A stretch of 64,000 nucleotides of DNA from Colwellia sp. MB02u-6 (lineage in GTDB: Bacteria; Pseudomonadota; Gammaproteobacteria; Enterobacterales; Alteromonadaceae): the NCBI RefSeq assembly GCF_014077095.1, contig NZ_JACGVG010000038.1, positions 1-64,000 on the forward strand, in the 5' to 3' direction. The notes under the pieces were generated by a model, which saw only the letters and a list, made by a program, of their open reading frames with translations, was not told the DNA's origin and ran no database searches. A program made the translations under genes and the position numbers. Position 1 is the stretch's first letter. Every line of letters begins with the position of its first letter. This document shows positions 8,503 through 25,141 of the stretch, in pieces.

Positions 8503-8750
8503 TTGATTTTCAGCCATATGAGTTTTGTTGGTGGTTTGAAACAAGAACGAATTCAATGGAAAAATGACCAAACACACTTTGAAGCACAGCAAGACATATT
8601 GAATGACATAGTGAATTACATGGTGATGTTCTATAACCGTTGTCGCTTAGATTTTTATTTGGGTTACAAAAGCCTAAATCATAATGAAAGCGAAATGATG
8701 AAATTGAAAAAATTCGCTTAATTAGGGTGTCTGACATTAGTTGACCCAAT
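8503..8750 (+). pseudogene. C-terminal remnant of an IS3-family transposase (OrfB)
   Basis: The frame 8503-8721 encodes about 70 residues with the end of an IS3-type rve integrase domain: a FVGGLKQERIQW segment (the F-x-x-LKxER block) and then MVMFYNRCRLDFYLGYKS, matching the family's YIxxFYNxxRxHxxLGYxSP ending. The DDE Asp residues and the whole N-terminus are missing. Just after the stop, TGTCTGACATTAGTTGACCC resembles an IS3 terminal inverted repeat. It marks an old insertion at the 3' border of the PHA locus. Confidence 0.75.
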
Positions 8751-8763
8751 TACTTTGTTGAGT

Positions 8764-9555
8764 TTATTTAGGATGATTAAAAGGCATTTTTAATAAGGTA
8801 AATAAGTTCGCATTTTTTTTATTGGCGGGAAAACTTTTAAGACCTATAGCTAAGTCCTCATCATTTTTTTGTGCCTGTGACTTATAACTAGCAAATATTC
8901 TATCCCACCAACTAACACTAAACCCGTAATTGCTATTAGTTTCTTCTACTACTTGGCTATGATGAATACGGTGTAATTCTTGCGTAATAAGTATGGTTCG
9001 TAATGGTCTCTCTAACCAAGGGGGTAGTCGAATATTGGCATGATTGAATAGCGAAAAACCATTGAGCGCTACTTCAAAAATAATCACCGCAAGTGCAGGT
9101 ACGCCAAGTACAATAACCGCCAAGCCTTTCAGTAATATACTCAACACAATTTCAATGGGATGAAAGCGCAAACCTGTACTGGCATCGGTATGACTGTCGG
9201 CATGATGAACTTTATGAACACGCCAGAGTATGGGCACAAGATGAAAAAGTCGATGTTGCCAATAAATCATTAAATCTAATAATAATAAACTCAAAGCGAT
9301 AATTAGCCAATTTGGTAAGTTAATGACATTGAATAGGCCAATACCTTGTGCGGAGCTATACAAAGCAATACCAGTAACACCAATAGGTACTAATAGCCTA
9401 GCAACGACTGACGATAAAATTAACAAAGAAAAGTTACCTAACCAACGAACACCTTTAGTCAGTTTGCTTTTACGCGCAGGAAAGCAGCTTTCTAGCACTA
9501 ACATAGTGATAAAAATGGCAAAGAAAATACTTAATCGTAAACTGGTATCTGACAT
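8764..9555 (-). CDS. Sterol desaturase / fatty acid hydroxylase family membrane protein
   Basis: A 263-residue protein with about four or five hydrophobic segments and the histidine boxes of the di-iron fatty acid hydroxylase superfamily: HRLFH, HKVHHAD and HRIHH. These enzymes oxygenate or desaturate lipid chains in the membrane; the substrate here is unknown. Its ATG directly abuts the stop of the CDP-alcohol phosphotransferase gene (9556), so it is co-transcribed and probably translationally coupled as the last gene of the eight-gene operon. Pairing with a phospholipid-type head-group transferase hints at lipid modification. Confidence 0.82.
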   Translation of the reverse strand: MSDTSLRLSIFFAIFITMLVLESCFPARKSKLTKGVRWLGNFSLLILSSVVARLLVPIGVTGIALYSSAQGIGLFNVINLPNWLIIALSLLLLDLMIYWQHRLFHLVPILWRVHKVHHADSHTDASTGLRFHPIEIVLSILLKGLAVIVLGVPALAVIIFEVALNGFSLFNHANIRLPPWLERPLRTILITQELHRIHHSQVVEETNSNYGFSVSWWDRIFASYKSQAQKNDEDLAIGLKSFPANKKNANLFTLLKMPFNHPK

Positions 9556-10233
9556 TTATTGCCCCTCGGTTAACTTATCTTTATCATTGTTTTTCGCCGT
9601 CTTAGTTGGCTTTTTTAAGGTGTGTTCTTTCAACGTATGATAGCCGCCATAAACCCGTGTAACAATTGTTATTGTCGCTAATGAAGCAAAGCCATAGGCA
9701 AGTTCAGCAAAATATTGTGGCCATAAACAAAATGCGACAAAAATAAGAATGGTCTCGGTGCCTTCGGTTAAGCCATTTAAATAATAAAAACTTTTATAAG
9801 CAAATTGAGGTTTGTCCAAGTTGAGTTTTTCGGCCGGAATAGCAAAAGCTAAAAAACTCGATCCAGTACCGATAAATACTGCTAACAATACTGCGGCGGC
9901 TAAAGCATTTTGCTCGGGGTTAGCCAGGGCAAAACCTAAGGGTATGGCGGCATAAAACAAAAAGTCGAGGCAAATATCTAAAAAGCCACCTGAGCTGGTG
10001 CTGTTGTTTTGGTGCCGTGCTAGTGCGCCATCTAAACCATCCAATAGCCGGTTTAGTACAATGGCAGCTAAAGCTAAATTCCATAAGTTTAAGGCTAAAA
10101 AAGGCACGGCTAACAAACCTATTATAAAACCGACTAGGGTCAGTTGATCTGCGGTAACTTGGCGTTTATCTAACAAACTAACCACAGGCTGTAACAAAGG
10201 CTTTATCAAAGGAGTAATATATTTATCTAGCAT
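9556..10233 (-). CDS. CDP-alcohol phosphatidyltransferase family protein (YnjF-like)
   Basis: A 225-residue integral membrane protein with the complete family signature: D-x2-DG-x2-AR-x8-G-x3-D-x3-D, running from LLDGLDGALAR to GGFLDICLD. The family transfers a phosphoalcohol from CDP-linked donors in phospholipid synthesis. In E. coli the homologous ynjF closes the ynjABCDEF cluster, which matches its place next to ynjD here. The substrate cannot be read from sequence. It starts 11 bp after ynjD and is contiguous with the hydroxylase gene. Confidence 0.82.
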   Translation of the reverse strand: MLDKYITPLIKPLLQPVVSLLDKRQVTADQLTLVGFIIGLLAVPFLALNLWNLALAAIVLNRLLDGLDGALARHQNNSTSSGGFLDICLDFLFYAAIPLGFALANPEQNALAAAVLLAVFIGTGSSFLAFAIPAEKLNLDKPQFAYKSFYYLNGLTEGTETILIFVAFCLWPQYFAELAYGFASLATITIVTRVYGGYHTLKEHTLKKPTKTAKNNDKDKLTEGQ

Positions 10234-10244
10234 AAGTCTGTTTC

Positions 10245-10907
10245 TTAAATGTCTTGTTGTGGTGTTTTCAAGTGCAACACTTTGCCATTAGCCGCTATAG
10301 CGTCTGACTCGTCATGTGTCACCATAATAACAGGTAATTGGTGTTGTCTAATTTGTTCAAAGACTAACTGTCGAGTTTCTTGGCGTAACTGACTATCTAA
10401 TTTACTAAATGGTTCATCCAATAATATGGCTTTAGGTTGACTCAATAATACCCGTAACAAGGCCACGCGTGCTTGCTGTCCGCCAGATAAACTCTCAGGT
10501 TGGCGATTCTCTAAACCGGCTAAACCGACATCAGATAGTGCCTGATTAATTTTTATTGCGCGTGTTTTGCTATCGCCTTTAGGCATCGCAAAAGCAATAT
10601 TACCGGCAACAGATAAATGCGAAAATAACAAAGCGTCTTGAAACAATAATCCGATATTACGCCGATAACTGACGACTTGGGTAATATTTTCGCCGTTGAG
10701 ATAAAGCTGACCATCGGCTTGAAATTCTTTGGGTAACATACCGGTTAGCCAATTTAATAAGGTTGATTTTCCACTGCCTGATGGCCCCATTATGGTCAGT
10801 ACGTCACCACCTATTATCGTTTCGTTAAGTGATAGTAAAGGTGTTTGCTGGCGCATTATGGTTAAGCTTTTTATCTGTAAACTGTTGATCTCAAAAGAAC
10901 TGCTCAT
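10245..10907 (-). CDS. ynjD: ABC transporter ATP-binding protein, YnjD-like
   Basis: A 220-residue ABC ATPase with Walker A GPSGSGKST, Q-loop LLFQD, signature LSGGQQARVALLRVL and Walker B AILLDEPFSKLD, then the H-loop in VTHD. It belongs to the ThiQ/PotA-like group that energises importers. Its ATG overlaps the stop of the permease gene (ATGA arrangement at 10904-10907), so the two are coupled. The YnjD assignment rests on order: binding protein, fused permease, ATPase, then a CDP-alcohol phosphotransferase, as in E. coli ynjBCD-F. Confidence 0.82.
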   Translation of the reverse strand: MSSSFEINSLQIKSLTIMRQQTPLLSLNETIIGGDVLTIMGPSGSGKSTLLNWLTGMLPKEFQADGQLYLNGENITQVVSYRRNIGLLFQDALLFSHLSVAGNIAFAMPKGDSKTRAIKINQALSDVGLAGLENRQPESLSGGQQARVALLRVLLSQPKAILLDEPFSKLDSQLRQETRQLVFEQIRQHQLPVIMVTHDESDAIAANGKVLHLKTPQQDI

Positions 10908-12715
10908 CGGTTAACCTTAGTGATATAACGTGCTGTTTTGTTATTGTGCTTTACTTGAGCCTTTTGTCTGTTTTTTTGCATCGACATTAGCCAAATGAGT
11001 GAAAAAGCGATGGCGGGTAAAAGCATCTGTATTAGCGCATAGACCGCACTTGTGCGGCGACTAGCGCCGTTTGCTAAGCTTACCGCTTCGGTGGTCACGG
11101 TATTAAGTCGTCCACCACCGACTAATAACGTTGGTAAATATTGGCTAAAACTAATGGCAAGTCCTAATGCACTGGCCATCATTATAGGCATTAATAATTG
11201 TGGCAAACTCAGCTGTAAAAATATTTTAATCGGCGATGCACCTAAGCTTGCTGCCACTTGTGCATAACGTGAGTCAAGCAGGCGATAACTGGTGGCTAAA
11301 GATAAAAATACATAAGGTAAAACAAACAGTAAATGTGCCAAGGCAACATTGATAAAGGTTGCTTTGCTGTGAACCGCTTCTTGAAGCCAGACTAAGCCAA
11401 ATAAAAAAGCAATGCTGGGGATCATTAATGGCAAATAAATAATCACACTACTAAAGTGTGAGAGCTGAGCCCCGTTTTGTTTTTCAAACTCTAAGGTTAG
11501 CAAGGTTAAAATGAGGGCAATGCTAGTCGCGACCAAGCCAATGGCGAGTGAGTTTATTATCGGTGTTTGTACTTGTAGCAAAGCCGATTGCCAATGCACC
11601 ATTACCCATTGTTCAGGCACTGCTAACGGAAAATTCCAGAAGCCGGCAAACGACCAAAACACCATACCAAGCAACGCCAAGGCAATAAAACCGATTAACA
11701 ACAGGGTAAAAATATTGATGACTTTAGACCAGAAAACATCACCGTATGTGCGCTGACCATTACTTAAGCTTTTACTGCTTATAGCTTGGCTTAGTTTTTC
11801 TAATAGCCACCAAGTGAATAGCACCGAAAGCGTAATGAACAATTGTAATATTGCCCCAGCAGAGGCTTTTATTCGCAAGCTTAAATCGACATCATGAAAC
11901 CAGTTCATAATGGCCACTGCTAATGTCGGAGGTGTATTTGGCCCCAATATTAAAGGCATTTCTACACTGGCACTGGCGTATGCGAGTATGGCTAACATGG
12001 GTAAACGCATTAACGGATAAATGTTAGGTAGCACGGCCTTGAAAAACGCCGTTATCGGATAATAGCCTAAGCTAAGCGCAACACGATATTGCGCCCGCAA
12101 CTTGATACTAAGCTCAGGTTGGGCAATAGCGCTCAAGGTCATTAATAATAAAAAAGGCAGCTCTTTTAGCGTTAAACCCATGATAATGCTAATACCGTAA
12201 GGGTCATGGGGCAGTAACCAATCTGTTGGACTTTGCCAACCGGTTAACCAGGGTGACAGTAGGCGAGCAATCATGCCTGAAGGTGTGATCAAAAAGGCAA
12301 TAGCTATTGCGGCTGCGGCATGGGGTATCACTAAAATAGGTCCTAACAAACGTTGAATACGGGCTAACCACGGGCTATCAAAATAATTGGCTAACAGTAA
12401 AAGTGTAATAACAAAAGCCAATAAACCACTGACAATACTGCTGAAAAAACTCAAGCTGATCATTTGAGCTATGCCGGGTGTTTGTACTAGTTGCTGAAAG
12501 CCTTGTAAGCCAAACTGAGTTTTGTCTAAAGCCGGTAACCAACCAAATGCTGGTAAAAGCACACCTAATAAACCACCTAGCACAGGTAAAATTAATATCG
12601 CTATTAATAATTTAGGGCTGAACTTTACCACTGTACTAAAAAGTTTGTCGAGCAGTTTGGTCTCATCTTTTAGAGGACGGTTTTTTAAGGAATTACTTGT
12701 CAGGTTATGGCTCAT
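10904..12715 (-). CDS. ynjC: ABC transporter permease, fused double-domain (YnjC/ThiP-like)
   Basis: A 603-residue inner-membrane protein with two BPD_transp_1 halves and about twelve membrane segments. Each half carries an EAA-type coupling loop (around ALSLGYYPITAFFKAVLP and AASLGASPIKIFLQLSLP). This fused layout occurs in thiamine (ThiP) and YnjC permeases. It starts 3 bp after the upstream ynjB-like stop and overlaps ynjD by 4 bp. It is about 90 residues longer than E. coli YnjC, partly from a longer N-terminus. The transported ligand is unknown; no thiamine-related gene or riboswitch is nearby. Confidence 0.82.
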   Translation of the reverse strand: MSHNLTSNSLKNRPLKDETKLLDKLFSTVVKFSPKLLIAILILPVLGGLLGVLLPAFGWLPALDKTQFGLQGFQQLVQTPGIAQMISLSFFSSIVSGLLAFVITLLLLANYFDSPWLARIQRLLGPILVIPHAAAAIAIAFLITPSGMIARLLSPWLTGWQSPTDWLLPHDPYGISIIMGLTLKELPFLLLMTLSAIAQPELSIKLRAQYRVALSLGYYPITAFFKAVLPNIYPLMRLPMLAILAYASASVEMPLILGPNTPPTLAVAIMNWFHDVDLSLRIKASAGAILQLFITLSVLFTWWLLEKLSQAISSKSLSNGQRTYGDVFWSKVINIFTLLLIGFIALALLGMVFWSFAGFWNFPLAVPEQWVMVHWQSALLQVQTPIINSLAIGLVATSIALILTLLTLEFEKQNGAQLSHFSSVIIYLPLMIPSIAFLFGLVWLQEAVHSKATFINVALAHLLFVLPYVFLSLATSYRLLDSRYAQVAASLGASPIKIFLQLSLPQLLMPIMMASALGLAISFSQYLPTLLVGGGRLNTVTTEAVSLANGASRRTSAVYALIQMLLPAIAFSLIWLMSMQKNRQKAQVKHNNKTARYITKVNR

Positions 12716-12718
12716 TTG

Positions 12719-14104
12719 TTATCGCGCTCCATAACGTTTTAACCATTCACGGGTTAATAATATTGACCAACTGGGATGGGGCTCACTTAATGCTGTGATT
12801 TTACTGCTAACAGGTAAGGCGCTTGGGTGCTGCTGATCAATACTAAACAATAATTGCTCTTGCTGACTTAATTGCGACACATCGAGAACCGTGCTGTCAC
12901 CCCAGATTTTAGCTTGTTGTTTTTTAGCTTGTGCCTCAACGCTGAGCATAAAATTGGCTAACACTTTTGCGGCATCACTATTCGCGGCATTATAAGGAAT
13001 AGCGATAAAATGAATATTACTTAAACTACCATCTTGCATGACAAAACTACGGGTGTTTTTGGGTAAGTTATAGCGCTCAACCGCTGCCGGTACTTGTGCA
13101 GCAGAGAAAGTAAAGCCTAAGTTTATCTCACCGTCACCAACCAGTCTTTGTAATGCTGTACCATTAGCAACAAAATATCGCCCTTGATGCCACAAATACG
13201 GATGCAGTTTATCTAAAAATGCCCATAAAACGGGTAGCAATGTCGCTTGGCTTTGCGTTGTTACTGCTTGATATAGACCTGACTTTACTTGCGCTGGTTG
13301 ATGTTGATTAAGTGTGATTAAGGCATATTTTAAAAAGCTTAATGATAAAAAGTCAGGCGGTTTTGGGTAAGTAAAACGACCAGGGTTTTGCTCAGCCCAA
13401 GTTAATAACTGGCTAATGTTTTTTGGCGCATGGCGAATACTATATTGATATGCTTTTTTTTGCTTATTGACATTAATTGAAGGTGTGTAATAAAAGGTTA
13501 GTGAAGCTTGTCCCCAAGGCGCTTCCATGCCTTGCGTTGGCAAGCCAAAATCACGGGTCATTGCCTCATTCTCACTCGGATTTGTTAACGAAAAATTAGG
13601 TAGTTGTGAAACCCAACCTTGCGCTAAGAGCTGATACTTTGCCATTGATGCAAAATTTTCGCCATTGATCCAGACTAAATCAACTTGCCCTTGCTGATGA
13701 TTATTTGCTGACTTTTCTGCTAAAACACGACTAACAGCTTCGCTGGTATCGGTTAGTTTTACATGTTGTAAGTGAATGTTATATTCTTGCTTTACTCGCT
13801 TAGCAAGCCATTGAATATAGCTATTAATTTGCGGGTCACCACCCCAAGCATGAAAATAAACGGAGGGGTTTTTTCCTAATGTTTCTCCCGTACTCCACTG
13901 TGTTTTTATCGGTGAGTTGTTTGATATTAATACGCTGTTCACTTTAGCGACTGAGCTTGTTTCAGTAATTGGTATAGAGCCTGTTTCAGGGGGTGCTGCA
14001 AAGGCAGTGTTGGCATAACTTAATGAGTTTGTAGTAAATAGCATGGCAAACAGCAGGGTGAACCAAGCTAAAAACCTTAACCTAGATAACCAAACAGCTG
14101 GCAT
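12719..14104 (-). CDS. ynjB: ABC transporter substrate-binding protein, YnjB-like
   Basis: A periplasmic solute-binding protein of the COG4134 (YnjB) type, recognised by the early AWGGDPQINSYIQW motif and LVWINGENFASM. I place the start at the ATG at 14104 because TAAGG lies 5 bp upstream and it leads straight into a signal peptide (hydrophobic FLAWFTLLFAMLF, cleavage near NSLSYA-NTAFA). The frame stays open to 14272, overlapping the DUF547 gene, but no ribosome site supports earlier starts. The chosen form has 461 residues. It feeds the YnjC/YnjD pair downstream. The ligand is not predictable from sequence. Confidence 0.75.
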   Translation of the reverse strand: MPAVWLSRLRFLAWFTLLFAMLFTTNSLSYANTAFAAPPETGSIPITETSSVAKVNSVLISNNSPIKTQWSTGETLGKNPSVYFHAWGGDPQINSYIQWLAKRVKQEYNIHLQHVKLTDTSEAVSRVLAEKSANNHQQGQVDLVWINGENFASMAKYQLLAQGWVSQLPNFSLTNPSENEAMTRDFGLPTQGMEAPWGQASLTFYYTPSINVNKQKKAYQYSIRHAPKNISQLLTWAEQNPGRFTYPKPPDFLSLSFLKYALITLNQHQPAQVKSGLYQAVTTQSQATLLPVLWAFLDKLHPYLWHQGRYFVANGTALQRLVGDGEINLGFTFSAAQVPAAVERYNLPKNTRSFVMQDGSLSNIHFIAIPYNAANSDAAKVLANFMLSVEAQAKKQQAKIWGDSTVLDVSQLSQQEQLLFSIDQQHPSALPVSSKITALSEPHPSWSILLTREWLKRYGAR

Positions 14105-14243
14105 AACTGCCTTAACTCTTGATACTTGTGACATAAAGTCATTGGCTTGTTGATACGATAACGACATGAAGGCTTGATGCGGAAAATGAGTGGCAAAAAG
14201 AGTCGAGAAACGCCCCCTTTCACCATTCAAATAACACTTCGAT

Positions 14244-15077
14244 TTACCTAACGGCATTGAGTGCCCAATCATAGTTTAAAAAATTAGTCGCCATATCTTC
14301 CGACTTTAAACCTGCTTGTTGGGCTGGCGTTAAATTTAAGGCTTTATGATAGAGCAATACGAAAGCAGATAGAGAATTACTGCTACGAAAGCCTTGTGTG
14401 AAGTCATCGCCATACCATTTGAAAATAGCGGAAAGCTCCATTGCATCTTCAGTAAAACGATTACGGCTCTTATCAGTTAAAAAACGTATCGTTTGCTCAC
14501 TTAATTGTTGCTCTAGTTTGTTAGCACTATAAGCTTCTTCACGTAAAGCAGGGCAGCCAATGCTGGCACAGTTAACAGCAAAATGAATACGAGGATCAGC
14601 ATATTTATTATCACCACGAATTAACTCATGTTCAATATTGTCTAAGCTGCGCGTTTCACCAAGCAGAGGAATAAATTTCTTACTCCACGGTGAACTAAAA
14701 AAGCTCCCCAGATCTTTTATCGACTTTATATCAGGGTAAGCCGTTAGAATCAGTTCAACTGTCCAAGCATTGTAGGCATTAATCAAAAATGACAATTGCT
14801 TAGGTGCAGGCCATTGCTCAAATGTTTGTTTATCAATATTACCAAGGGCAGTTAAATAAGCCGTTAGCTTTACATGATCAGTTTTCATGCCGGCATAATT
14901 TACTTGGCTTGAATGACCATAATTAATTGGTGAAACGTGCTGAGTTAATAAGGCCTGCCATGGTTGATGCAAGGTCTCTTGCGCCGTACTGACAGCGCTA
15001 AAAACTGTGCTTAACAGTAACAATACAGCTAACGGCAAAGATTTAGCCCTTGAGAGGGCTTTGTTTAAGTTAGTCAT
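14244..15077 (-). CDS. DUF547 domain secreted protein
   Basis: A 277-residue protein with a signal peptide (hydrophobic LPLAVLLLLSTVFSAVSTA, cleavage near residue 32) and a DUF547 domain across most of the mature chain. Signature pieces include FLINAYNAWTVELIL, LDNIEHELIRG, RIHFAVNCASIGCP and KWYGDDF. The two cysteines in NCASIGCP are family-typical. DUF547 has no settled biochemical role; such genes often sit next to reductases and transport genes. It lies 5 bp after the VTT-reductase gene. Confidence 0.8.
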   Translation of the reverse strand: MTNLNKALSRAKSLPLAVLLLLSTVFSAVSTAQETLHQPWQALLTQHVSPINYGHSSQVNYAGMKTDHVKLTAYLTALGNIDKQTFEQWPAPKQLSFLINAYNAWTVELILTAYPDIKSIKDLGSFFSSPWSKKFIPLLGETRSLDNIEHELIRGDNKYADPRIHFAVNCASIGCPALREEAYSANKLEQQLSEQTIRFLTDKSRNRFTEDAMELSAIFKWYGDDFTQGFRSSNSLSAFVLLYHKALNLTPAQQAGLKSEDMATNFLNYDWALNAVR

Positions 15078-15082
15078 GGGTA

Positions 15083-17260
15083 TTAACCTCTTCTCCAGGT
15101 GTGGAATTTCTCTAACCAGCTTAAAACGGTTTCTGGTGCATGGTTACGTTTCCACTCACCTGCTGCGTATTTATTGCCTTCAGCCCACGTTGGGTAGCTG
15201 TGAATCGTGCCTAAAATTTTGTTTAAGCCTAAGCCATGCTTCATTGCTAATACGAACTCAGCGATTAAATCACCAGCATGTTCAGAGACAATAGTGACAC
15301 CCAGTATTTTATCTTTACCTTTTGGTGTGATCACTTTAATAAAACCATTGGCCGCACTGTCAGTAATCGCCCGGTCTAACTCTGCAAAGTCATATCGGGT
15401 AATTTCATAATCGATAGCCTGTTCAATAGCTTCTTGTTCATTAATACCGACACGTGCCACTTCTGGATCAATAAAGGTTGTCCATGGAATAACGCGGTAA
15501 TCGACTTTAAATTTCTTAAAGGTGCCAAATAAGGCATTAACTGCGGCATACCAACCTTGATGTGCGGCAACATGGGTAAATTGATAAGGACCAACAATAT
15601 CTCCTGCGGCAAATATATTAGGGTATAAAGTCTCTAAATATTCATTGGTTTGAATGGTGCGGTTAGTTTCTATACCTAATGTTTCAAGGCCATAACCTTC
15701 TAAGCGAGCAGCGCGGCCAACAGCACATAATAACTGGTCGTATTCAATGGCCATTTCTTCTTCTTGATCTGTACCTTGTTCGTGCTTAAGGTTTTTCACA
15801 ATGATGAATCTTTTACCGTCACGTTGTTCACAACGTAAAGCTTGGTGCGAAGTTAAAATATTCACACCACTTTTTTGTAATGACTGACTAGCAAATTCAG
15901 AGACTTCAAGGTCTTCTCTGATCATGATGCGTTCAGCCATTTCAATTTGTATCACTTGTGAGCCTAAACGAGCGAAACTTTGGGCAAGTTCACTGCCAAT
16001 AGGTCCGCCGCCTAACACCACTAATTTTTTTGGTGCGCTATCAAGTTTGGAAAATTCTGTCCATAAAGTATCACTAGTAACATAACCACTGGTTTCAATA
16101 CCCGGTAGTGGCGGTACAAATGGACGAGCACCCGTGGCAATAACAATACTGCGAGCGGTTAGTGTTTGCGTACTGCCATCGTTAAGTTTAATTTCTACAG
16201 TCCACGGGTTGGTTAGCTTACCGTAACCTTTAATGACTTCAACACCTAAGTCCGTGTAACGTTCAACACTGTCGTGTGGAGCAATATCGGCAATCACTTG
16301 ATGAACACGTGCCATTACTTTCTTAAAAGAAAACTCTGGGGTAGCGTTCTCTAGACCATAGTGTTCACCATGTTTAATTTGATCAACTATTTTTGCACTT
16401 TTAATGATTGCCTTACTTGGAACACAACCATAATTTAAACAGTCGCCGCCCATTTCACCCGCTTCAATTAACGTTACTTTTGCTTTTACAGCCGATGCGA
16501 TATAGCTTGTTACCAAACCACCAGCGCCGGCACCGATAACAATTAAGTTACGATCAAAGCTTTTAGGTTTTTGCCATTTTTTATAGACTTGACGTTGTTT
16601 TATTTTGTTAATGATAGCGTTAGCAATAAGGGGTAAAAGACCGAGTAACACAAAAGAGAAAATAAGCTTAGGTGATAATATACCTGACAAGCTCTCTATT
16701 TCAGCTAATTGCGTACCTGCGTTAACATAAACCATGGTGCCTAAAAACATGCCTATTTGGCTAACCCAATAAAACGTCCAGGCTTTAATACCGGTAACTG
16801 CGATTAATAAATTAACTAAAAAGAAAGGAAAAACAGGCACTAAACGTAAGGTGAACAGATAAAATGCCCCTTCTTTTTTTACACCAGCATCAATGGCTTT
16901 TAAGCGTTCAGGAAATTTAGCCTTAATGGTATCGCGCAGCAGATAACGTGAGACCAAGAAGGCTAATAGTGCACCAAGGCTAGAGGCAAATGAGGCAATA
17001 ACCAAGCCTTGGGCTAAGCCAAACAAAGCGCCTGAAGCCAAGGTTAAAATGGCAGCCCCAGGTAATGACAGCGCAGCGACCAAAACGTAAAGGGTAAAAA
17101 AGCCCCCAATAACCAATAATGGCGATTGTTCGCGCCACTGGCCAAATTGCGCCATTGAAGCTTTTAATCCCTCTAAAGTAAGTAACCTATTGAGATCAAA
17201 ATGAAAAAACAATGCCACCAGTGTAATGGCGATAACGAATAATAGTATCTTCTTAAACAT
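15083..17260 (-). CDS. VTT (TVP38/DedA-like) domain fused to MerA-like pyridine nucleotide-disulfide oxidoreductase
   Basis: A 725-residue two-part protein. Residues ~1-220 form a multi-pass membrane domain of the TVP38/TMEM64 (VTT) type, with the GAAILTLASGALFG and FTLRLVPVFPFFLVN stretches. Residues ~236-725 form a class I flavoprotein reductase: FAD motif GAGAGG (243-248), redox-active pair C274/C279 in GGDCLNYGCVPSK, NAD motif GGGPIGSE and a dimerisation domain with the HSYPTW active-site segment. It resembles mercuric reductase and dihydrolipoamide dehydrogenase but has no N-terminal HMA domain and no C-terminal cysteine pair, so mercury reduction is unlikely. It would reduce an unknown disulfide, quinone or metal complex at the membrane. 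Confidence 0.85.
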   Translation of the reverse strand: MFKKILLFVIAITLVALFFHFDLNRLLTLEGLKASMAQFGQWREQSPLLVIGGFFTLYVLVAALSLPGAAILTLASGALFGLAQGLVIASFASSLGALLAFLVSRYLLRDTIKAKFPERLKAIDAGVKKEGAFYLFTLRLVPVFPFFLVNLLIAVTGIKAWTFYWVSQIGMFLGTMVYVNAGTQLAEIESLSGILSPKLIFSFVLLGLLPLIANAIINKIKQRQVYKKWQKPKSFDRNLIVIGAGAGGLVTSYIASAVKAKVTLIEAGEMGGDCLNYGCVPSKAIIKSAKIVDQIKHGEHYGLENATPEFSFKKVMARVHQVIADIAPHDSVERYTDLGVEVIKGYGKLTNPWTVEIKLNDGSTQTLTARSIVIATGARPFVPPLPGIETSGYVTSDTLWTEFSKLDSAPKKLVVLGGGPIGSELAQSFARLGSQVIQIEMAERIMIREDLEVSEFASQSLQKSGVNILTSHQALRCEQRDGKRFIIVKNLKHEQGTDQEEEMAIEYDQLLCAVGRAARLEGYGLETLGIETNRTIQTNEYLETLYPNIFAAGDIVGPYQFTHVAAHQGWYAAVNALFGTFKKFKVDYRVIPWTTFIDPEVARVGINEQEAIEQAIDYEITRYDFAELDRAITDSAANGFIKVITPKGKDKILGVTIVSEHAGDLIAEFVLAMKHGLGLNKILGTIHSYPTWAEGNKYAAGEWKRNHAPETVLSWLEKFHTWRRG

Positions 17261-17271
17261 AAAAACTGTCC

Positions 17272-19617
17272 TTAAAAACTGTGCTGTATTGTGAACTTAG
17301 CATTAATAGGTAATTCAGGAAAAACCAAGGTTGAACCAAAATATCCGCCTTCAAAGACTGGCCGCCAATTCTTTTGATTCGTGACATTATTGATATCGAA
17401 ACGCAATTTAGTGTGCTCGCCAATTAGGTAACTGGTGTTAAGACCTAAGGTGTATTGATCGCGTATGTTTACGGTTGCTAAAAAATCTAGTGGGTAACTT
17501 GAGGTATATAATGCCGCAAAGCCTGCTTGCCAAGATTCTGTAATATAAAGGCCACCATTAATACTTAATGATTGCTCTGGTATGCCTTGTACACGCCTAT
17601 TAGAACGAGGAAAAGCGGTGAAGTTTGGTGCACCTACGCTAGTACCTTGAATAATGTCAGGACGAGAATTATCAAAGGCATCAGCAATTTGCGACGAACT
17701 TTGACTACTGGCAGAATTGTCATAACGAGCATCAAGATAACTGTAACCTATGTTAAACCAATAGGGCGCAGCATCATAAAACACCTGCAGTTCAACACCT
17801 TTGGTTTTTATGCCGGTGTTACTGCCATCGCGATTACGTAAGCTACGACTTTGATTAAACAATGCTCCGTCAATATACCAAGCGCTGTTGTCGGGTATAT
17901 ATTTAATGCCCACTTCATTTAGCGTGTTTTCAGTAGCAAAGTTCTGTGTATTAATTAAGTTATCAGCGCCTAATGAATTACCACCGGCCATGCTATTTGA
18001 AGTTGCTTCGTTATAACTCGTTGCAGCATAAACAGTTAAATCAGTATTAAGCTTGTAATTAACGCTGGCTTGACCTGAATGTAAGGTTTTATTAATACTA
18101 TCTTGTGCCGCTTTCTGCCCAGTAGGTGCAATAGGATCTCGTGCTTGTACATCATAAAAATCAATACGATAACCAAAGTTTGTTCTTAGACGATCGCTCC
18201 ATTGACTGTCTTGTTGAATAGCAAAGCCCGTTTGCCAGCTGGTAGAGTCGGTAGTATCTGATAACGAATAGTCACCAAGGTTGTCATTATTGACATCATA
18301 CTGACCACCGGGTGAAACAAATACACCGGGGCGCAGCTCTACAAGTCTAGCTTGTTGTTCTACTGTTAGGGGAATGCGGCGGCTCTCAACAGGACCCGTT
18401 AAATCAATAGGGTCGTCAGCTTCGGTGGTAAATTGGCTATAACCTCGCACTTTATTATAACGGACATCAAAGGCGAGAATAGTTTGTTGCTGATTGTTCC
18501 AATCATGACTTAGCTCAAGTCGGTTTTGCGCGGTATCGGCAGCATCTATGATTTCAACAAAGCTATTTTGAGCAATTTCATCACGGGTTAAATGTTGATA
18601 ATAAGTGCTATTTTTTAATTGTGTTTGGCTGCTTAGTTCGTGGGTGTAGATGCTGTGCAATAAAAAAGTGTTAGCTTCGTTTTCATTATCAGGATCGGTT
18701 AATACCGTACTACGGCTAATTTGTACTTGTCCGGTTGGCGAAATTATGGCTCCAGCGCCGGGTATAAGGCTACCATTAGGTTGTACGCCTTGGCCGGTAA
18801 TATATGCGCCGCTGTCGATTAGTGCTTGTGTTGGCCTATTAATGCCAGCATTGTCGGTAAATTCAACTTGGTATAATTCAAGATTAATATCCCACGTGCT
18901 TTGGCTATCAGGCAATAAACGAAAGGCGGCGTAAAAACTGTCACTTTTAAAGCTTGAGTAATCATAAAAACTACCATTATCAATATGCTCAGCGCTGATT
19001 CTAAAACCACTCTCACCTTTAACAATTGGCGCACCTATATCCAGTTGTGCACTGTATTGATCCCATCGCCCAGCAGTCAACTTTACTTTTGCAGCACTTT
19101 TTTCAGTCGATGCGCGTTTAGATTGTAAATTAACAAAACCACCGTTACGTTGGCTACTACCAAATAACACTGGTGGCGCACCTTTTATTACATCTAGCTG
19201 ATCGACAGAATTAAACGAAAGTGGTACACCAAAGCCATTATTTCCTGCTTGGCGACGCATACCATCTTGAAAAAGTTCACCTAATTGACCACGTAAAGTA
19301 GGTAAGCTTGGCGCACCAAAACCACTTGCTGAGTAGCTGTTAGGCGTTACGGCTAAAATATCTTGTAAGTCAGTTATGTTTAATTGTTCCATCATGGCGC
19401 TAGTAATAGGCGTCATAGATCGTGCAATGTCAGCCAAGCCTAAATCATCGCCAAATGGGCCACTGATTTTGGTGTTTTTGGGCGAAAAACCATGATTAAT
19501 AATGCGTTGACCTGCAACTTCAATAACTTCAACATCAGTTTCCTTAGCTTCTTCAGCACTGGCTATTTGAGCGTGAAAAATAAAGTGCATACTAAGGGCT
19601 ATTAAACTGTATTTCAT
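17272..19617 (-). CDS. TonB-dependent outer membrane receptor
   Basis: A 781-residue receptor with a signal peptide (cleavage near QIASA-EE) and a TonB-box-like DVEVIEVAGQR just after it. The plug domain spans about residues 50-170 (DLQDILAVTPN, TLRGQ, QLDVIKGAPPVLFGSSQRNGGFVNL) and is followed by a C-terminal beta-barrel ending in aromatic F. The plug resembles siderophore-type receptors; there is no N-terminal STN signalling domain. It is the first gene of the operon and is followed after 11 bp by the VTT-reductase gene. Together with YnjBCD it could form a full outer- and inner-membrane uptake route; the ligand is unknown. Confidence 0.88.
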   Translation of the reverse strand: MKYSLIALSMHFIFHAQIASAEEAKETDVEVIEVAGQRIINHGFSPKNTKISGPFGDDLGLADIARSMTPITSAMMEQLNITDLQDILAVTPNSYSASGFGAPSLPTLRGQLGELFQDGMRRQAGNNGFGVPLSFNSVDQLDVIKGAPPVLFGSSQRNGGFVNLQSKRASTEKSAAKVKLTAGRWDQYSAQLDIGAPIVKGESGFRISAEHIDNGSFYDYSSFKSDSFYAAFRLLPDSQSTWDINLELYQVEFTDNAGINRPTQALIDSGAYITGQGVQPNGSLIPGAGAIISPTGQVQISRSTVLTDPDNENEANTFLLHSIYTHELSSQTQLKNSTYYQHLTRDEIAQNSFVEIIDAADTAQNRLELSHDWNNQQQTILAFDVRYNKVRGYSQFTTEADDPIDLTGPVESRRIPLTVEQQARLVELRPGVFVSPGGQYDVNNDNLGDYSLSDTTDSTSWQTGFAIQQDSQWSDRLRTNFGYRIDFYDVQARDPIAPTGQKAAQDSINKTLHSGQASVNYKLNTDLTVYAATSYNEATSNSMAGGNSLGADNLINTQNFATENTLNEVGIKYIPDNSAWYIDGALFNQSRSLRNRDGSNTGIKTKGVELQVFYDAAPYWFNIGYSYLDARYDNSASSQSSSQIADAFDNSRPDIIQGTSVGAPNFTAFPRSNRRVQGIPEQSLSINGGLYITESWQAGFAALYTSSYPLDFLATVNIRDQYTLGLNTSYLIGEHTKLRFDINNVTNQKNWRPVFEGGYFGSTLVFPELPINAKFTIQHSF

Positions 19618-19658: not shown

Positions 19659-20280
19659 TGAACTTATTAAAAATGTTATGTCAGTCTAGACCGAGATTAA
19701 AAATAATAAATTTCAGGATTTTAATTTACATTGGTTTTTAATCTTAGTCATTAGTCAAAATAGCGTTTTAAAATTTCTTATGGATTGGTTAAAAAAACAT
19801 AAGCTATAAAACGAAGTTAATGTACTAATGAAGGCAATAACGATAGTGAAAATACTGGTAATATTACTCATATTTTTTTAGAGTATTGATGAGATAAATT
19901 GAAAGAGCTGTAGTTGATGTTAAAAATTTGCTGGTAGTTAACCAATTTATAGTTTTGAGGATTTGAATATAAACAAGACTTACTCGAGTAAAAACTAAAA
20001 ATATGCATTAATCTTTGTGTTCATCAGCAGTGTGAGCTTGATTGGTGTTAAAGTAGGAGGCAATATTATTTTTTCTTCTTATTATTATCTACGTAAGGGG
20101 TAATAAGATGATGAGTTAGCGTTAGTTTGAATATTTTTATTAATAAAGTCTGCGCTAGACTTATGCATCTCCTTCAATATATGCTTTTGATCTTAATAAA
20201 TATACAGCCAAACCATCAAAAGTAGCAAAATTATACTTATTGAAGTAGCTTGGCTATAGGCATACATTTCGTTGCTAATT
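19659..20280. other. Intergenic region, no gene recognised
   Basis: About 620 bp of AT-rich sequence between the receptor operon and the OmpA gene terminator. It must contain the operon promoter. I see no supported ORF, no cobalamin or thiamine riboswitch core and no repeats. Confidence 0.5.
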
Positions 20281-21809: not shown

Positions 21810-22199
21810 TTATTTTTTTATCCACTGCCCAGCAGCATTTTGAATAAAATAGCCGGGCTGAGTTTTATTTAAGGCTTTTTCAGCGGCTAGTGCGGTGACT
21901 TGCGCCATGGTGATGTTATTTTTACGCGCTAGGTTAAGGTAAATGTTTTTACGCTTTTCGTTAACACTTGCAACTAAGCTTCGCGCTTCGGCGTTCTCTA
22001 CCACTAGGCCTAGGTAACCGTTTTGCATTTCTCCAATCAAACCTTGTTGCTTGGCGTCATCTAGTGAAATAGCCCATGCGGAAAATGTCAAAGTTACAGC
22101 TAGCAGCGCACACATTAATTTTTTAACTATGTTGTTGGTCATGTTATTAGATTGTTTACTAGTAAATTTACTCGTTAATCTATTAGATAAGTTATTCAT
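21810..22199 (-). CDS. ydbL: YdbL family (DUF1318) periplasmic protein
   Basis: A 129-residue protein whose mature part (from ISLDDAKQQGLIGEM) matches YdbL, ending QPGYFIQNAAGQWIKK. AAGGAG lies at the right distance before the first ATG, which supports this start and an N-terminal extension before the signal peptide (KKLMCALLAVTLTFSAWA). In E. coli, ydbH-ynbE-ydbL forms an operon for phospholipid transport to the outer membrane, with YdbL acting as an accessory to YdbH-YnbE. The same order is kept here. Confidence 0.88.
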   Translation of the reverse strand: MNNLSNRLTSKFTSKQSNNMTNNIVKKLMCALLAVTLTFSAWAISLDDAKQQGLIGEMQNGYLGLVVENAEARSLVASVNEKRKNIYLNLARKNNITMAQVTALAAEKALNKTQPGYFIQNAAGQWIKK

Positions 22200-22208
22200 A
22201 ATTGCTCC

Positions 22209-22397
22209 TTAAAATACGTCACTATCAGCACTAAAAATTTCATCAAGTTGTTTGTCGACTTTTACCCTGATTTCATGATCAATTTTTAAATTTAAATTAA
22301 TCGTGATCGGTTCTTTGGCGCTAACTTCTATTTTATGTGTACAGCCACTGATTATAAAAAGAGCTAACACCGTGGTTAGTATTTTATTCATACTCAC
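22209..22397 (-). CDS. ynbE: YnbE family lipoprotein
   Basis: A 62-residue lipoprotein with lipobox FIISGC, so acylation is expected at C19. The mature part (KEPITINLNLKIDHEIRVKVD) is typical of YnbE. YnbE forms beta-stacking multimers and contacts the C-terminus of YdbH at the outer membrane. Its start overlaps the ydbH stop by 4 bp (22394-22397). Confidence 0.9.
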   Translation of the reverse strand: MSMNKILTTVLALFIISGCTHKIEVSAKEPITINLNLKIDHEIRVKVDKQLDEIFSADSDVF

Positions 22398-25141
22398 TCC
22401 TTATTTTTTTGTAAATCTTTGATAATACGTTCTTCAAATTTTTTGGTAATTGACATTGATTCAAGCAAGCCTAATAAGTCATAGTTTAAGTTCAAGTTCA
22501 GATTCACATCGTTATCTATGTCTGGGTTTTGGCCTTTGATCACGGTTTTTAATAACATATAGCCGTCATCTGCCATTGAAATATCAGAAGACAACTGATG
22601 ATAGTGCAAGTTCTGTAAGGCATCAAACGCTAACTTTAACTGGCTGTTATTCGCTTTTAGCTCAGCTACCGCTGGATTATTTATCACCTGAATAAGGCCA
22701 TTAGTCACATTATGCAGTTCGCCTTTTCCCATAGTATACTTTTCGCCATCATAACTAATAGGCAACTGGCCTGATATGTTTCCGGTCACTACAATACCTT
22801 GCTTTTTGTCTAGCGCCAACACCTGCTCTAAGTCTATACTAGTTAACTGAACGTCAACTGAATGGCCATGCTTAAGTGGCCATTGAATTTTTGGAATGGC
22901 AAAGCTACCACCTAATATATCACCTTTGACTTTTGTCGCTGATATTGTAAAGTCTTTTTCATAACTCAAACGGGTATTAACGGAGAGTTTTGATATCGGT
23001 GTTGGGATATCTATCAATGCAATCGTTAGGTTTTCTTTTCGTTCTTTAGATACATCATCAGGCGTGGTTAACTTACCCGCTAAAAATTGAAAGTTTTGCT
23101 GCCAATTAAGCTCTTGTAACCAAATGCCATCTACTTCACCGCTGACTGATGTCATCGCTATTGATATGGCTAGTGGAGTTTTTTCAAAATATGTTAAATC
23201 AGTTACCTGACCTTCTACGCTGTAGCTCAGTTTTCCTTTAACTAAGGCTATTTTTGTTGGTAATTGAAGGTTTAGAGAAAGTAGGTCAGTTAACTGTAAC
23301 GCTTCAGCGGTTAAGGTGATGTAAGGTTTAGTTACTGCGCCCAAGATTGTTAAATTTCCTAGCGGTACATTATCGGCAGTGGCCGTAGCATTTATTTGAA
23401 TGTTATTTAAATTACCGGCAATAGTACTGCTTAGCGCTAATTTTTTGACTACAATCATTTCACCCACACGCAATTTTTCAGCCTGACTTTTCACTTTTAG
23501 ATTTAAGTTAATGACACGCTTCCCTTGAATGTGCGCCTTATTGTTAACTTGTACAGGGTTTTGACCTTGCATAGCGGTTTGTTGTTGAATCGGGTGGTGT
23601 ATTTTTACACTGCCTTGTATTTTCGTGGCTAATATCTTGATCGATAATAATTTTTTATCTGCTGTTTTTTTATTTGTCGACATGGCGATGTTGTTGCTAG
23701 TAAACGATGAGTTTTCATCAAGGTTTATTATTGTTTGCGCGTGGTTTTGGCTAATAGAACCTTGCAGCTTGACTATAACCGGTGCATCAGTGAAATTATT
23801 AATGCTTGAGAGTAACAATGGGCTAGCAAGTTTAAAATTTAGTTGTGCCAATAGTGGACTTTGTTTTGCTGGGTCTTCTGTTACTGGATTATTGTGGCGA
23901 CTTAGGTCACCGTTGAGATAATGCTTTAGGTTAAAGGCCAGGTTATCTAAGTTCAGTTGATGCACTTGCTGAGCCCTTTCTGCCTTTATGGCTATAGCTG
24001 ATAACGACAGCTGCTGATCGTTTAGGTTAAAAGCTAATTTTCCTTTTGGCTGAAAATTTAATTGCTCAACTGGGTTGTCTTTTAGTAGGCTGATGAGTAA
24101 AGGTGATAGTGCATTGTTGTTTAAGTAATCAATCAGGTGTGGGTGACTATATTGCAACTGCAAGCTGTTGTTATGTTGAAACTCAACTGTAAGTTCAGCA
24201 TGTCTGTTAAGCGCTTTATCTTCCCTGCTTAAGTTAGCCGTGTTTAAGTTAACTTTGCTGTGCAGATTAAGCGCGCCGGAGAGTTCAAGAGGTCCACTCG
24301 CTTTAATACCTTGAGCAGCAACAAGTGAAAAGTTTTTCAATTGCCAGTTTAAGATTAATTGTCCTGCTTGATAATTTAATAAGCTATAAAACTCACCGCT
24401 AGTATTAAGCGAGCCTAAAAATTTTATTATTGCAGGCGCTAGCGGTAGTTTATGTGCAAGTAAAAACTGTTTTAATGGGGTTAACTGACCAGATACTTTT
24501 AAGTCCAAGAGAGCTTTTTTATGCTGGTTAGTATTTGATAAATCAACAGATAATAAAACGTTATGCTGAAGATTTTTTAATGAAAACGCTAAGGTATCTT
24601 CTATAAAGGAAAATTGGCCTGTATAAGGTGCTTTTTGTTCGCCATTATTGCTATTTATTGTGCCGCTATTTTCCTTTGAGAAAGGCGAATAACTTAACGC
24701 TGCCACCTGAATATTAAAAGGTAACTTAAGCTGTTCAAGTTGCGTTAAATAAGTCTTTAGCTGTGCTGTTAACCTTGCCGGGTTATTTTTTTTCGGACTA
24801 CTTTTGAATAGTGTAAGCAAGTCTGCTCTGCCTTTGACCGTTATTGATGCAACATCGATACGTTTAATTTTTTGCTCAGCAGCTAATGCCAAGGTTATTG
24901 TTATATCTTCAATATTGATATCTGCTTGCGGTATTTGCAGGCATAAGTGACTTATCGCCAGCTTTAAATCTGTGGTGAAGTGAAAGTCTAGACAGGTGAT
25001 TTTTGCGTCATATAACGCCAATTCATCGTGACTAAAGTTTTGTACAATAGCAACGCGGGCAAAATAGAGTAAAAAGAGGCTAGTCATAATAGTGCTTAGT
25101 ACAAGGGCAAGTGTAATTAAGCTTTTTTTTGGGAGCATCAT
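22394..25141 (-). CDS. ydbH: YdbH, AsmA-like intermembrane phospholipid transport protein
   Basis: A 915-residue protein with one N-terminal membrane anchor (LITLALVLSTIMTSLFLLYF) and a long periplasmic beta-rich chain of the AsmA-like/YdbH (dicarboxylate-transport-named) family. These proteins form a hydrophobic groove bridging the inner and outer membranes; E. coli YdbH is partly redundant with TamB and YhdP. The C-terminal region (HNVTNGLIQVINNP, AFDALQNLHYHQLSSDI) is the most family-like. It is the first gene of the ydbH-ynbE-ydbL operon. Confidence 0.88.
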   Translation of the reverse strand: MMLPKKSLITLALVLSTIMTSLFLLYFARVAIVQNFSHDELALYDAKITCLDFHFTTDLKLAISHLCLQIPQADINIEDITITLALAAEQKIKRIDVASITVKGRADLLTLFKSSPKKNNPARLTAQLKTYLTQLEQLKLPFNIQVAALSYSPFSKENSGTINSNNGEQKAPYTGQFSFIEDTLAFSLKNLQHNVLLSVDLSNTNQHKKALLDLKVSGQLTPLKQFLLAHKLPLAPAIIKFLGSLNTSGEFYSLLNYQAGQLILNWQLKNFSLVAAQGIKASGPLELSGALNLHSKVNLNTANLSREDKALNRHAELTVEFQHNNSLQLQYSHPHLIDYLNNNALSPLLISLLKDNPVEQLNFQPKGKLAFNLNDQQLSLSAIAIKAERAQQVHQLNLDNLAFNLKHYLNGDLSRHNNPVTEDPAKQSPLLAQLNFKLASPLLLSSINNFTDAPVIVKLQGSISQNHAQTIINLDENSSFTSNNIAMSTNKKTADKKLLSIKILATKIQGSVKIHHPIQQQTAMQGQNPVQVNNKAHIQGKRVINLNLKVKSQAEKLRVGEMIVVKKLALSSTIAGNLNNIQINATATADNVPLGNLTILGAVTKPYITLTAEALQLTDLLSLNLQLPTKIALVKGKLSYSVEGQVTDLTYFEKTPLAISIAMTSVSGEVDGIWLQELNWQQNFQFLAGKLTTPDDVSKERKENLTIALIDIPTPISKLSVNTRLSYEKDFTISATKVKGDILGGSFAIPKIQWPLKHGHSVDVQLTSIDLEQVLALDKKQGIVVTGNISGQLPISYDGEKYTMGKGELHNVTNGLIQVINNPAVAELKANNSQLKLAFDALQNLHYHQLSSDISMADDGYMLLKTVIKGQNPDIDNDVNLNLNLNYDLLGLLESMSITKKFEERIIKDLQKNKE

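Follow-up and report, generated by a model that had tools for sequence, protein, structure and literature searches.

What does a bacterium gain from joining an outer-membrane receptor, an inner-membrane importer and a membrane-bound reductase in a single operon? This question is raised by positions 8764-19617 of the window, by which we mean the whole 64,000-nucleotide stretch of Colwellia sp. MB02u-6 analysed here, where eight genes for a TonB-dependent receptor, a VTT/FAD-reductase fusion, a DUF547 protein, a YnjBCD transporter, a YnjF homologue and a fatty-acid-hydroxylase family protein lie in a row. Our results show that the operon is real and conserved; its pairing of YnjBCD with a VTT protein is known yet unsolved, and its regulatory context, a promoter-like element shared with genes of metal and oxidant defence, is new. 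The reading that we favour, at roughly even chances, is that the operon is an envelope system for soft-metal and oxidant stress that would import a small ligand and reduce either that ligand or a partner.

The eight open reading frames (ORFs) are all on the minus strand and are separated, from the receptor downward, by 11, 5, -29, 3, -4, 11 and 0 bp. The value of -29 holds if ynjB is read as its longest ORF, from 14272; the in-frame starts at 14167 and 14134 would give 76 and 109 bp instead. An earlier note, made from the letters alone, had described eight genes on one strand with gaps of 11 bp or less at nearly every junction and an uncertain ynjB start, and the ORFs, the gaps and the Pfam matches agree with this. 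Pfam families over their cut-offs were found across the operon (TonB plug and barrel, VTT with Pyr_redox_2 and its dimerisation domain, DUF547, SBP_bac_8, BPD_transp_1, ABC_tran, CDP-OH_P_transf and FA_hydroxylase), and the catalytic motifs of its enzymes are intact.

The receptor (17272-19617, 781 aa) scores 36.4 bits for the plug and 50.0 bits for the barrel, contains no cysteine and has an N-terminus that, judged by eye, resembles a signal sequence. The fusion protein (15083-17260, 725 aa), assigned from Pfam, NCBIfam and motifs, joins a VTT domain to an FAD-containing pyridine-nucleotide disulfide reductase with a CLNYGC redox disulfide motif at residues 274-279 and the HxxPT base. The hallmark of MerA is a C-terminal vicinal cysteine pair; the fusion lacks this pair and scores 369 bits against the MerA cut-off of 454, and that identity was rejected. 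The DUF547 protein (14244-15077, 277 aa; Pfam) also has a signal-like N-terminus as judged by eye, and its C170 and C175 are unchanged in all 14 aligned sequences; its structure model (pLDDT 82.5) found no fold match in the PDB better than E 1.4. The only riboswitch match lies within this gene, below the gathering score, and was discarded. The transporter belongs to the YnjBCD family, with a binding protein (12719-14167, or from 14272 or 14134) that reaches 455.6 bits for PRK11622 (cut-off 203) and is 38% identical to E. coli YnjB, a long YnjC-like permease (10904-12715, 603 aa; BPD_transp_1 37.9 bits over residues 416-574, with a weak ThiP-type match spanning 82-574) and a YnjD-like ATPase (10245-10907; Pfam) with Walker A, signature and Walker B motifs. 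The YnjF homologue (9556-10233; Pfam) carries the CDP-alcohol motif and shares 63% identity with E. coli YnjF across 203 aa. The last gene (8764-9555) encodes a hydroxylase family protein with three histidine boxes (Pfam, 104.3 bits); with 87.8 bits against a cut-off of 475, it does not qualify as OlsE, the ornithine lipid hydroxylase.

The earlier note had named a grouping unique to this genome as a refutation of its reading, and this does not hold: the grouping is kept in all 11 YnjB-positive congeners and in other genera. Among 60 relatives, the host's own genome included, YnjB was found in 22 and the VTT reductase in 25, and 21 of the 22 YnjB genomes also have the reductase, which is located elsewhere in the genome in G036, G043, G046 and G057 (in the last as a match to the reductase part only). 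Within the genus, YnjB is present in 11 of the 16 other members (one of these genomes being just 66% complete), the reductase in exactly the same 11, and all eight genes follow in the same order in each of them. The operon, complete or shortened, is also found in Pseudoalteromonas, Shewanella, Psychromonas, Alteromonas, Psychrobacter and Halomonas. We also observed that YnjB of G036 (L022/L025) is divided between two reading frames and that G044 (L024) has a second YnjB-like match that reads through three stops.

The survey of YnjB neighbourhoods that the earlier note had proposed found a VTT gene within 8 kb of YnjB in 54 of 92 loci with a detected YnjB, a set that counts one contig twice (L027 = L048); the ORF caller misses genes in GC-rich loci, which is probably why 10 of 102 loci had no detected YnjB. 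The 54 loci with VTT contain a TonB-dependent receptor in 24 cases, DUF547 in 26, YnjF in 41, the hydroxylase in 33 and a DoxX-like gene in 18, whereas the 38 without VTT contain YnjF in four and none of the others. Because of these counts we regard VTT-YnjBCD-YnjF as the core, and the receptor, DUF547, hydroxylase and DoxX-like genes as add-ons of a marine version. The suggestion of a single unit, made up of the receptor, the importer YnjBCD and a flavin reductase of the membrane, is borne out, and that unit is conserved. Across 369 genomes of the class, 12 of the 13 with a strong YnjB also have the reductase, against 112 of the 356 others, counts that treat genomes as independent despite their shared ancestry. 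In a reductase tree made by a quick method with a midpoint root, after 26 of 130 VTT proteins had been dropped as near-copies, the YnjB label requires six changes, gains or losses, of which at least three are forced by well-supported branches. The Psychrobacter reductases nest within the Pseudoalteromonas/Colwellia group in this tree, which indicates transfer.

The lead on function comes from the DNA ahead of the operon. Upstream regions of the operon share the promoter-like element TGAAA[TG]T-N16-GGTCT[AT], which appears in the window as TGAAATT-N16-GGTCTA at 19687-19715 on the minus strand, 69 bp before the receptor start and as the only exact match. The element was tested in 51 of the 54 YnjB+VTT loci, chosen by an identity filter, with shuffles that preserved base composition only, and then in L042, L044 and L046. 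Of 29 distinct Alteromonadales loci, 27 have it ahead of the operon: 17 as an exact copy, six with one mismatch, three with two, and L070 with an exact copy that falls within the receptor ORF because this ORF was called too long. Exact sites outnumber those of a reversed-pattern control by 64 to 36 in 36 genomes and by 47 to 24 in 25 genomes. Nine of the 47 belong to the operon and 12 precede genes for HvfA (three), MsrP (three), DoxX-like proteins (two), MsrA, BufA2, DUF2282 and glutathione reductase; the 26 that are left are about as many as the 24 of the control.

In the host, the one other exact copy stands 59 bp before the gene for an EGKCG-repeat peptide, which scores 65.5 bits for the HvfA-family domain (cut-off 19.5) and 48.8 bits for the HvfA equivalog, below its cut-off of 95. 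Such a gene with its element is seen at L264:1589-1966 and at L286:7921-8298 (host contig C27). Since no MNIO- or DUF2063-like gene was recognised by eye among the ORFs in 16 kb around the host gene, it is probably an orphan precursor. Copies also precede the EGKCG peptide in congeners, four of them without the operon (G011, G013, G015 and G016), and HvfA-type peptides follow 14 distinct element sites in all (12 and two more). At exact sites in other Alteromonadales, BufA2 scores 126 bits (cut-off 60), the DUF2282 bufferin 77 (cut-off 22) and two MsrP proteins 488 and 471 (cut-off 207), the third MsrP (L270) being assigned by resemblance; of the DoxX-like proteins, one (L318) reaches 22.4 bits against a cut-off of 23.6 and the other (L329) was assigned by resemblance. 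Further genes behind exact sites encode MsrA, glutathione reductase, a DsbH-like thioredoxin, a metallo-beta-lactamase-fold protein and a CopL-like protein that scores below its cut-off. MsrB-MsrA genes precede VTT-DUF547 in L170 and L184. Two products behind the element are unfamiliar: a small cysteine-rich NPCAA-repeat protein of Psychromonas (L305:1149-1421), which matches no Pfam or NCBIfam family and could be an undescribed metal-binding peptide, and a conserved 327-aa protein in two Psychromonas genomes (L317 and L330).

The element is therefore common to the operon and to bufferin/HvfA, DoxX-like and MsrP genes, with exceptions in L042, L046 and Psychrobacter. According to the published accounts, under heavy-metal stress sigmaF of Caulobacter controls the genes for DUF2282, DUF692, DUF2063, DoxX and YedY (PMC3511200), the RpoE2 regulon under hypochlorite includes msrAB, mtsZ and a doxX cluster (PMC7907618), and both EGKCG peptides and bufferins have been linked to copper (PMC12452194, PMC12668002). 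Because these sigmaF and RpoE2 regulons hold the same gene kinds, the element is taken to mark a metal/oxidant regulon of extracytoplasmic function (ECF) type that includes the operon in Alteromonadales. Pfam recognised no peptide precursor, MNIO or DUF2063 gene among the eight genes; the operon is not itself a bufferin/HvfA biosynthetic cluster and would share a regulon with such clusters.

On these grounds, a single ECF-type promoter most likely drives the operon, as part of a small regulon that also takes in copper-binding peptides of the HvfA and bufferin kinds, DoxX-like proteins and the methionine sulfoxide reductases of the periplasm. The receptor and YnjBCD would bring a small ligand inward through both membranes, and the membrane-anchored disulfide reductase would use NAD(P)H on this ligand, or on a thiol or metal partner that soft metals or hypochlorite have oxidised. 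DUF547 may act in the periplasm via its cysteine pair, while YnjF and the hydroxylase would modify a membrane lipid. Stress-induced import of a small ligand, coupled with a reduction at the membrane, would be the most economical mechanism.

Several observations weigh against this interpretation. A pure stress response would not ordinarily include both a TonB receptor and an importer, and the structure matches of the YnjB model point to no particular ligand: phosphonate, hexose-phosphate, polyamine and ferric binders match alike, and no ligand was assigned from them. The single site in the window is not significant on its own, as 35 of 100 shuffles contain a match when one mismatch is allowed; the weight of the element lies in its conservation across loci. 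It is absent from the Alteromonadales loci L042 and L046, from the regions before 12 of 12 Psychrobacter VTT genes (4-5 mismatches) and nine tested Psychrobacter DoxX-like genes (3-5 mismatches), and two Halomonadaceae genomes have no site. Roughly half of the exact sites overall seem to be chance occurrences, and the host genome taken alone has two, the same number as for the control. The ECF sigma family TIGR02943, which is encoded near VTT elsewhere, falls below its cut-off in the host, where no cognate sigma factor was found and several other sigma genes appear as weak matches; RpoE may be the reader of the element, which our data neither show nor exclude.

The earlier note had proposed nutritional uptake of a siderophore-like metal chelate with reductive release. 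The weak PDB match of the receptor to the pyochelin receptor (1xkw) and the predicted YnjB fold, which is near ferric binders though equally near the other three kinds, are consistent with it. In 25 upstream regions, however, the best Fur-like matches covered 10-13 of 19 positions and the best Zur match 14 of 18, both being rejected; an ArgR site was rejected in the same consensus count. These are plain counts against consensus sequences, with no null computed. FNR matches in these regions covered 5-9 of 10 positions and were not consistent. Because no Fur-like site stood out, the operon does not resemble nutrient-metal uptake; the element, moreover, is common to copper-buffering peptides and methionine sulfoxide reductases, and no receptor was seen in 30 of the 54 YnjB+VTT loci. 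We consider this explanation quite improbable. What survives of the proposed metal link is the element that the operon has in common with genes for HvfA and bufferin peptides and for methionine sulfoxide reductases, not a signature of metal acquisition. Membrane-lipid remodelling, in which YnjBCD would import a head-group precursor, YnjF couple it, and the lipid be modified or flipped by the hydroxylase and the VTT domain, draws on the close similarity of YnjF to its E. coli counterpart, on the frequency of YnjF and hydroxylase genes in the YnjB+VTT loci and on VTT being a DedA-type domain (Pfam; as described in PMC10127716). It is nevertheless highly improbable, as it leaves the disulfide reductase, DUF547 and the receptor unexplained, and neither lipid-type enzyme was detected in the listed Halomonas neighbourhoods.

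A third alternative is that the reductase and its partners process an arsenosugar-type compound, made by ArsM/ArsS elsewhere and imported by YnjBCD here, which YnjF would attach to lipid. The reductase was found in 145 of the 369 class genomes, and 80 regions of about 18 kb, mostly around full-length matches, were taken from these. They contain ArsS in 16 cases (14 at >=53% identity, two at 25-28%), an ArsM-like methyltransferase in 13 (four at 27-33%), DUF547 in nine, an ECF sigma factor in eight, a SelD-like oxidoreductase and YnjC in five each and a DoxX-like gene in four, and TIGR04282 and TIGR04283 glycosyltransferases also occur. Representatives of ArsS, TIGR04282, TIGR04283 and TIGR03169 exceed their cut-offs, but the ArsM-like one is below every NCBIfam cut-off shown (168 vs 263 bits). 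Halomonas L080 (8885-18199) and similar loci read APH kinase-ynjBCD-TIGR04283-TIGR04282-VTT-SelD-like; this variant joins "arsenosugar" glycosyltransferases to YnjBCD, and G422, a genome of this type, has no ArsS match. The 124 genomes with a strong reductase match (145 minus 21 weak; 19 match in the reductase part alone, among them the YnjB-positive G106) comprise 94 with ArsS, 12 with a strong YnjB, none with both and 18 with neither; import in some bacteria and synthesis in others may thus supply one common later step. The 20-row Ynj-linked clade of the tree groups with a 6-row group of which five are Ars-linked (SH-aLRT 88), and a role of ArsS in oxo-arsenosugar formation is given in a review (PMC12159101).

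On the other hand, the exclusion of YnjB and ArsS (0 of 13 strong-YnjB genomes in the class) may follow lineage, as eight YnjB families are involved, and it becomes 1 of 14 if G144 is counted, which lies outside the 124, has a divergent YnjB and a weak reductase match, and has ArsS. At the cut-offs applied, the host lacks ArsS, TIGR04283 and an ArsM-like protein, and with them the ArsM-ArsS pair of an arsenosugar biosynthesis genome; ArsS is over its cut-off in one of the 60 relatives (G059), and an ArsM-like protein occurs in one of the 22 with YnjB (G057). An arsenic ligand would, besides, be assumed from gene partners. This alternative is unlikely, yet an organoarsenical or other soft-element compound is kept in play because ArsM/ArsS are swapped for YnjBCD. 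A wider proposal, distinctly unlikely as it stands, is that the cargo of YnjBCD, also in E. coli, is a scarce, redox-active protectant, an organochalcogen or organoarsenic compound of thiol, selenol or arsenosugar type, that VTT-linked reductases keep reduced; cells would scavenge an external metal buffer and antioxidant, deployed in the copper-peptide regulon, which ArsM/ArsS bacteria would make for themselves.

Upstream of the operon, past an OmpA-family gene, genes for a DUF1318 protein and a YdbH-like intermembrane phospholipid transport protein (21810-25141, minus strand) run in the same direction. Just past the operon, 8521-8721 on the plus strand looks like the tail of a transposase-like ORF (...MVMFYNRCRLDFYLGYKSLNHN...), a putative insertion-sequence remnant.

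The envelope-stress reading can be set against known systems. In E. coli K-12, ydjX and ydjZ, which encode VTT proteins 29-30% identical to the VTT domain of the window, precede ynjABCD, and ydjXYZ-ynjABCD(E) with ynjF resembles the window in bringing together VTT proteins, YnjB, YnjC, YnjD and YnjF. The earlier note was right that the E. coli genes share YnjBCD and YnjF and that the stretch shown has no receptor or FAD reductase, and wrong that no VTT counterpart exists. Unlike in the window, the E. coli stretch shown also has no DUF547 or hydroxylase gene, its VTT proteins are separate from any FAD reductase, YdjY, the AhpD-like YnjA and the rhodanese YnjE are found instead, and ynjF is on the opposite strand rather than co-directional with the operon. 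According to the sources, ydjX to ynjE form an eight-gene operon (PMC8921622), an FNR site is listed ahead of ydjXYZ-ynjABCD (PMC3688515) and BaeR induces the ydj-ynj genes weakly and perhaps indirectly (PMC2731931); no substrate of YnjBCD or YdjXYZ is named among the literature matches listed. The VTT-reductase of the window is an example of the fusion of a COG0398 DedA-type domain with a pyridine-nucleotide disulfide oxidoreductase, the commonest COG0398 fusion according to PMC10127716; its function is left open in that account, and the operon partners and promoter come from our analysis. ArsM/ArsS arsenosugar loci contain a related VTT reductase, some with DUF547 and TIGR04282/4283, but have ArsS and the ArsM-like protein, not found in the host, in the place of YnjBCD. 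Both YnjBCD and the VTT-reductase fusions of COG0398 are orphans that occur in many genomes; the shared element gives a specific copper/hypochlorite lead on their function, which extends to E. coli K-12. The Caulobacter sigmaF regulon and the bufferin/HvfA clusters, as described, hold the gene kinds found behind the Alteromonadales element (DUF2282/BufA2/HvfA, DoxX-like, MsrP/YedY), although the available account of sigmaF (PMC3511200) includes no operon of receptor, VTT and YnjBCD, and its promoter, GTAACC-N16-CGAA, differs from that of the window.

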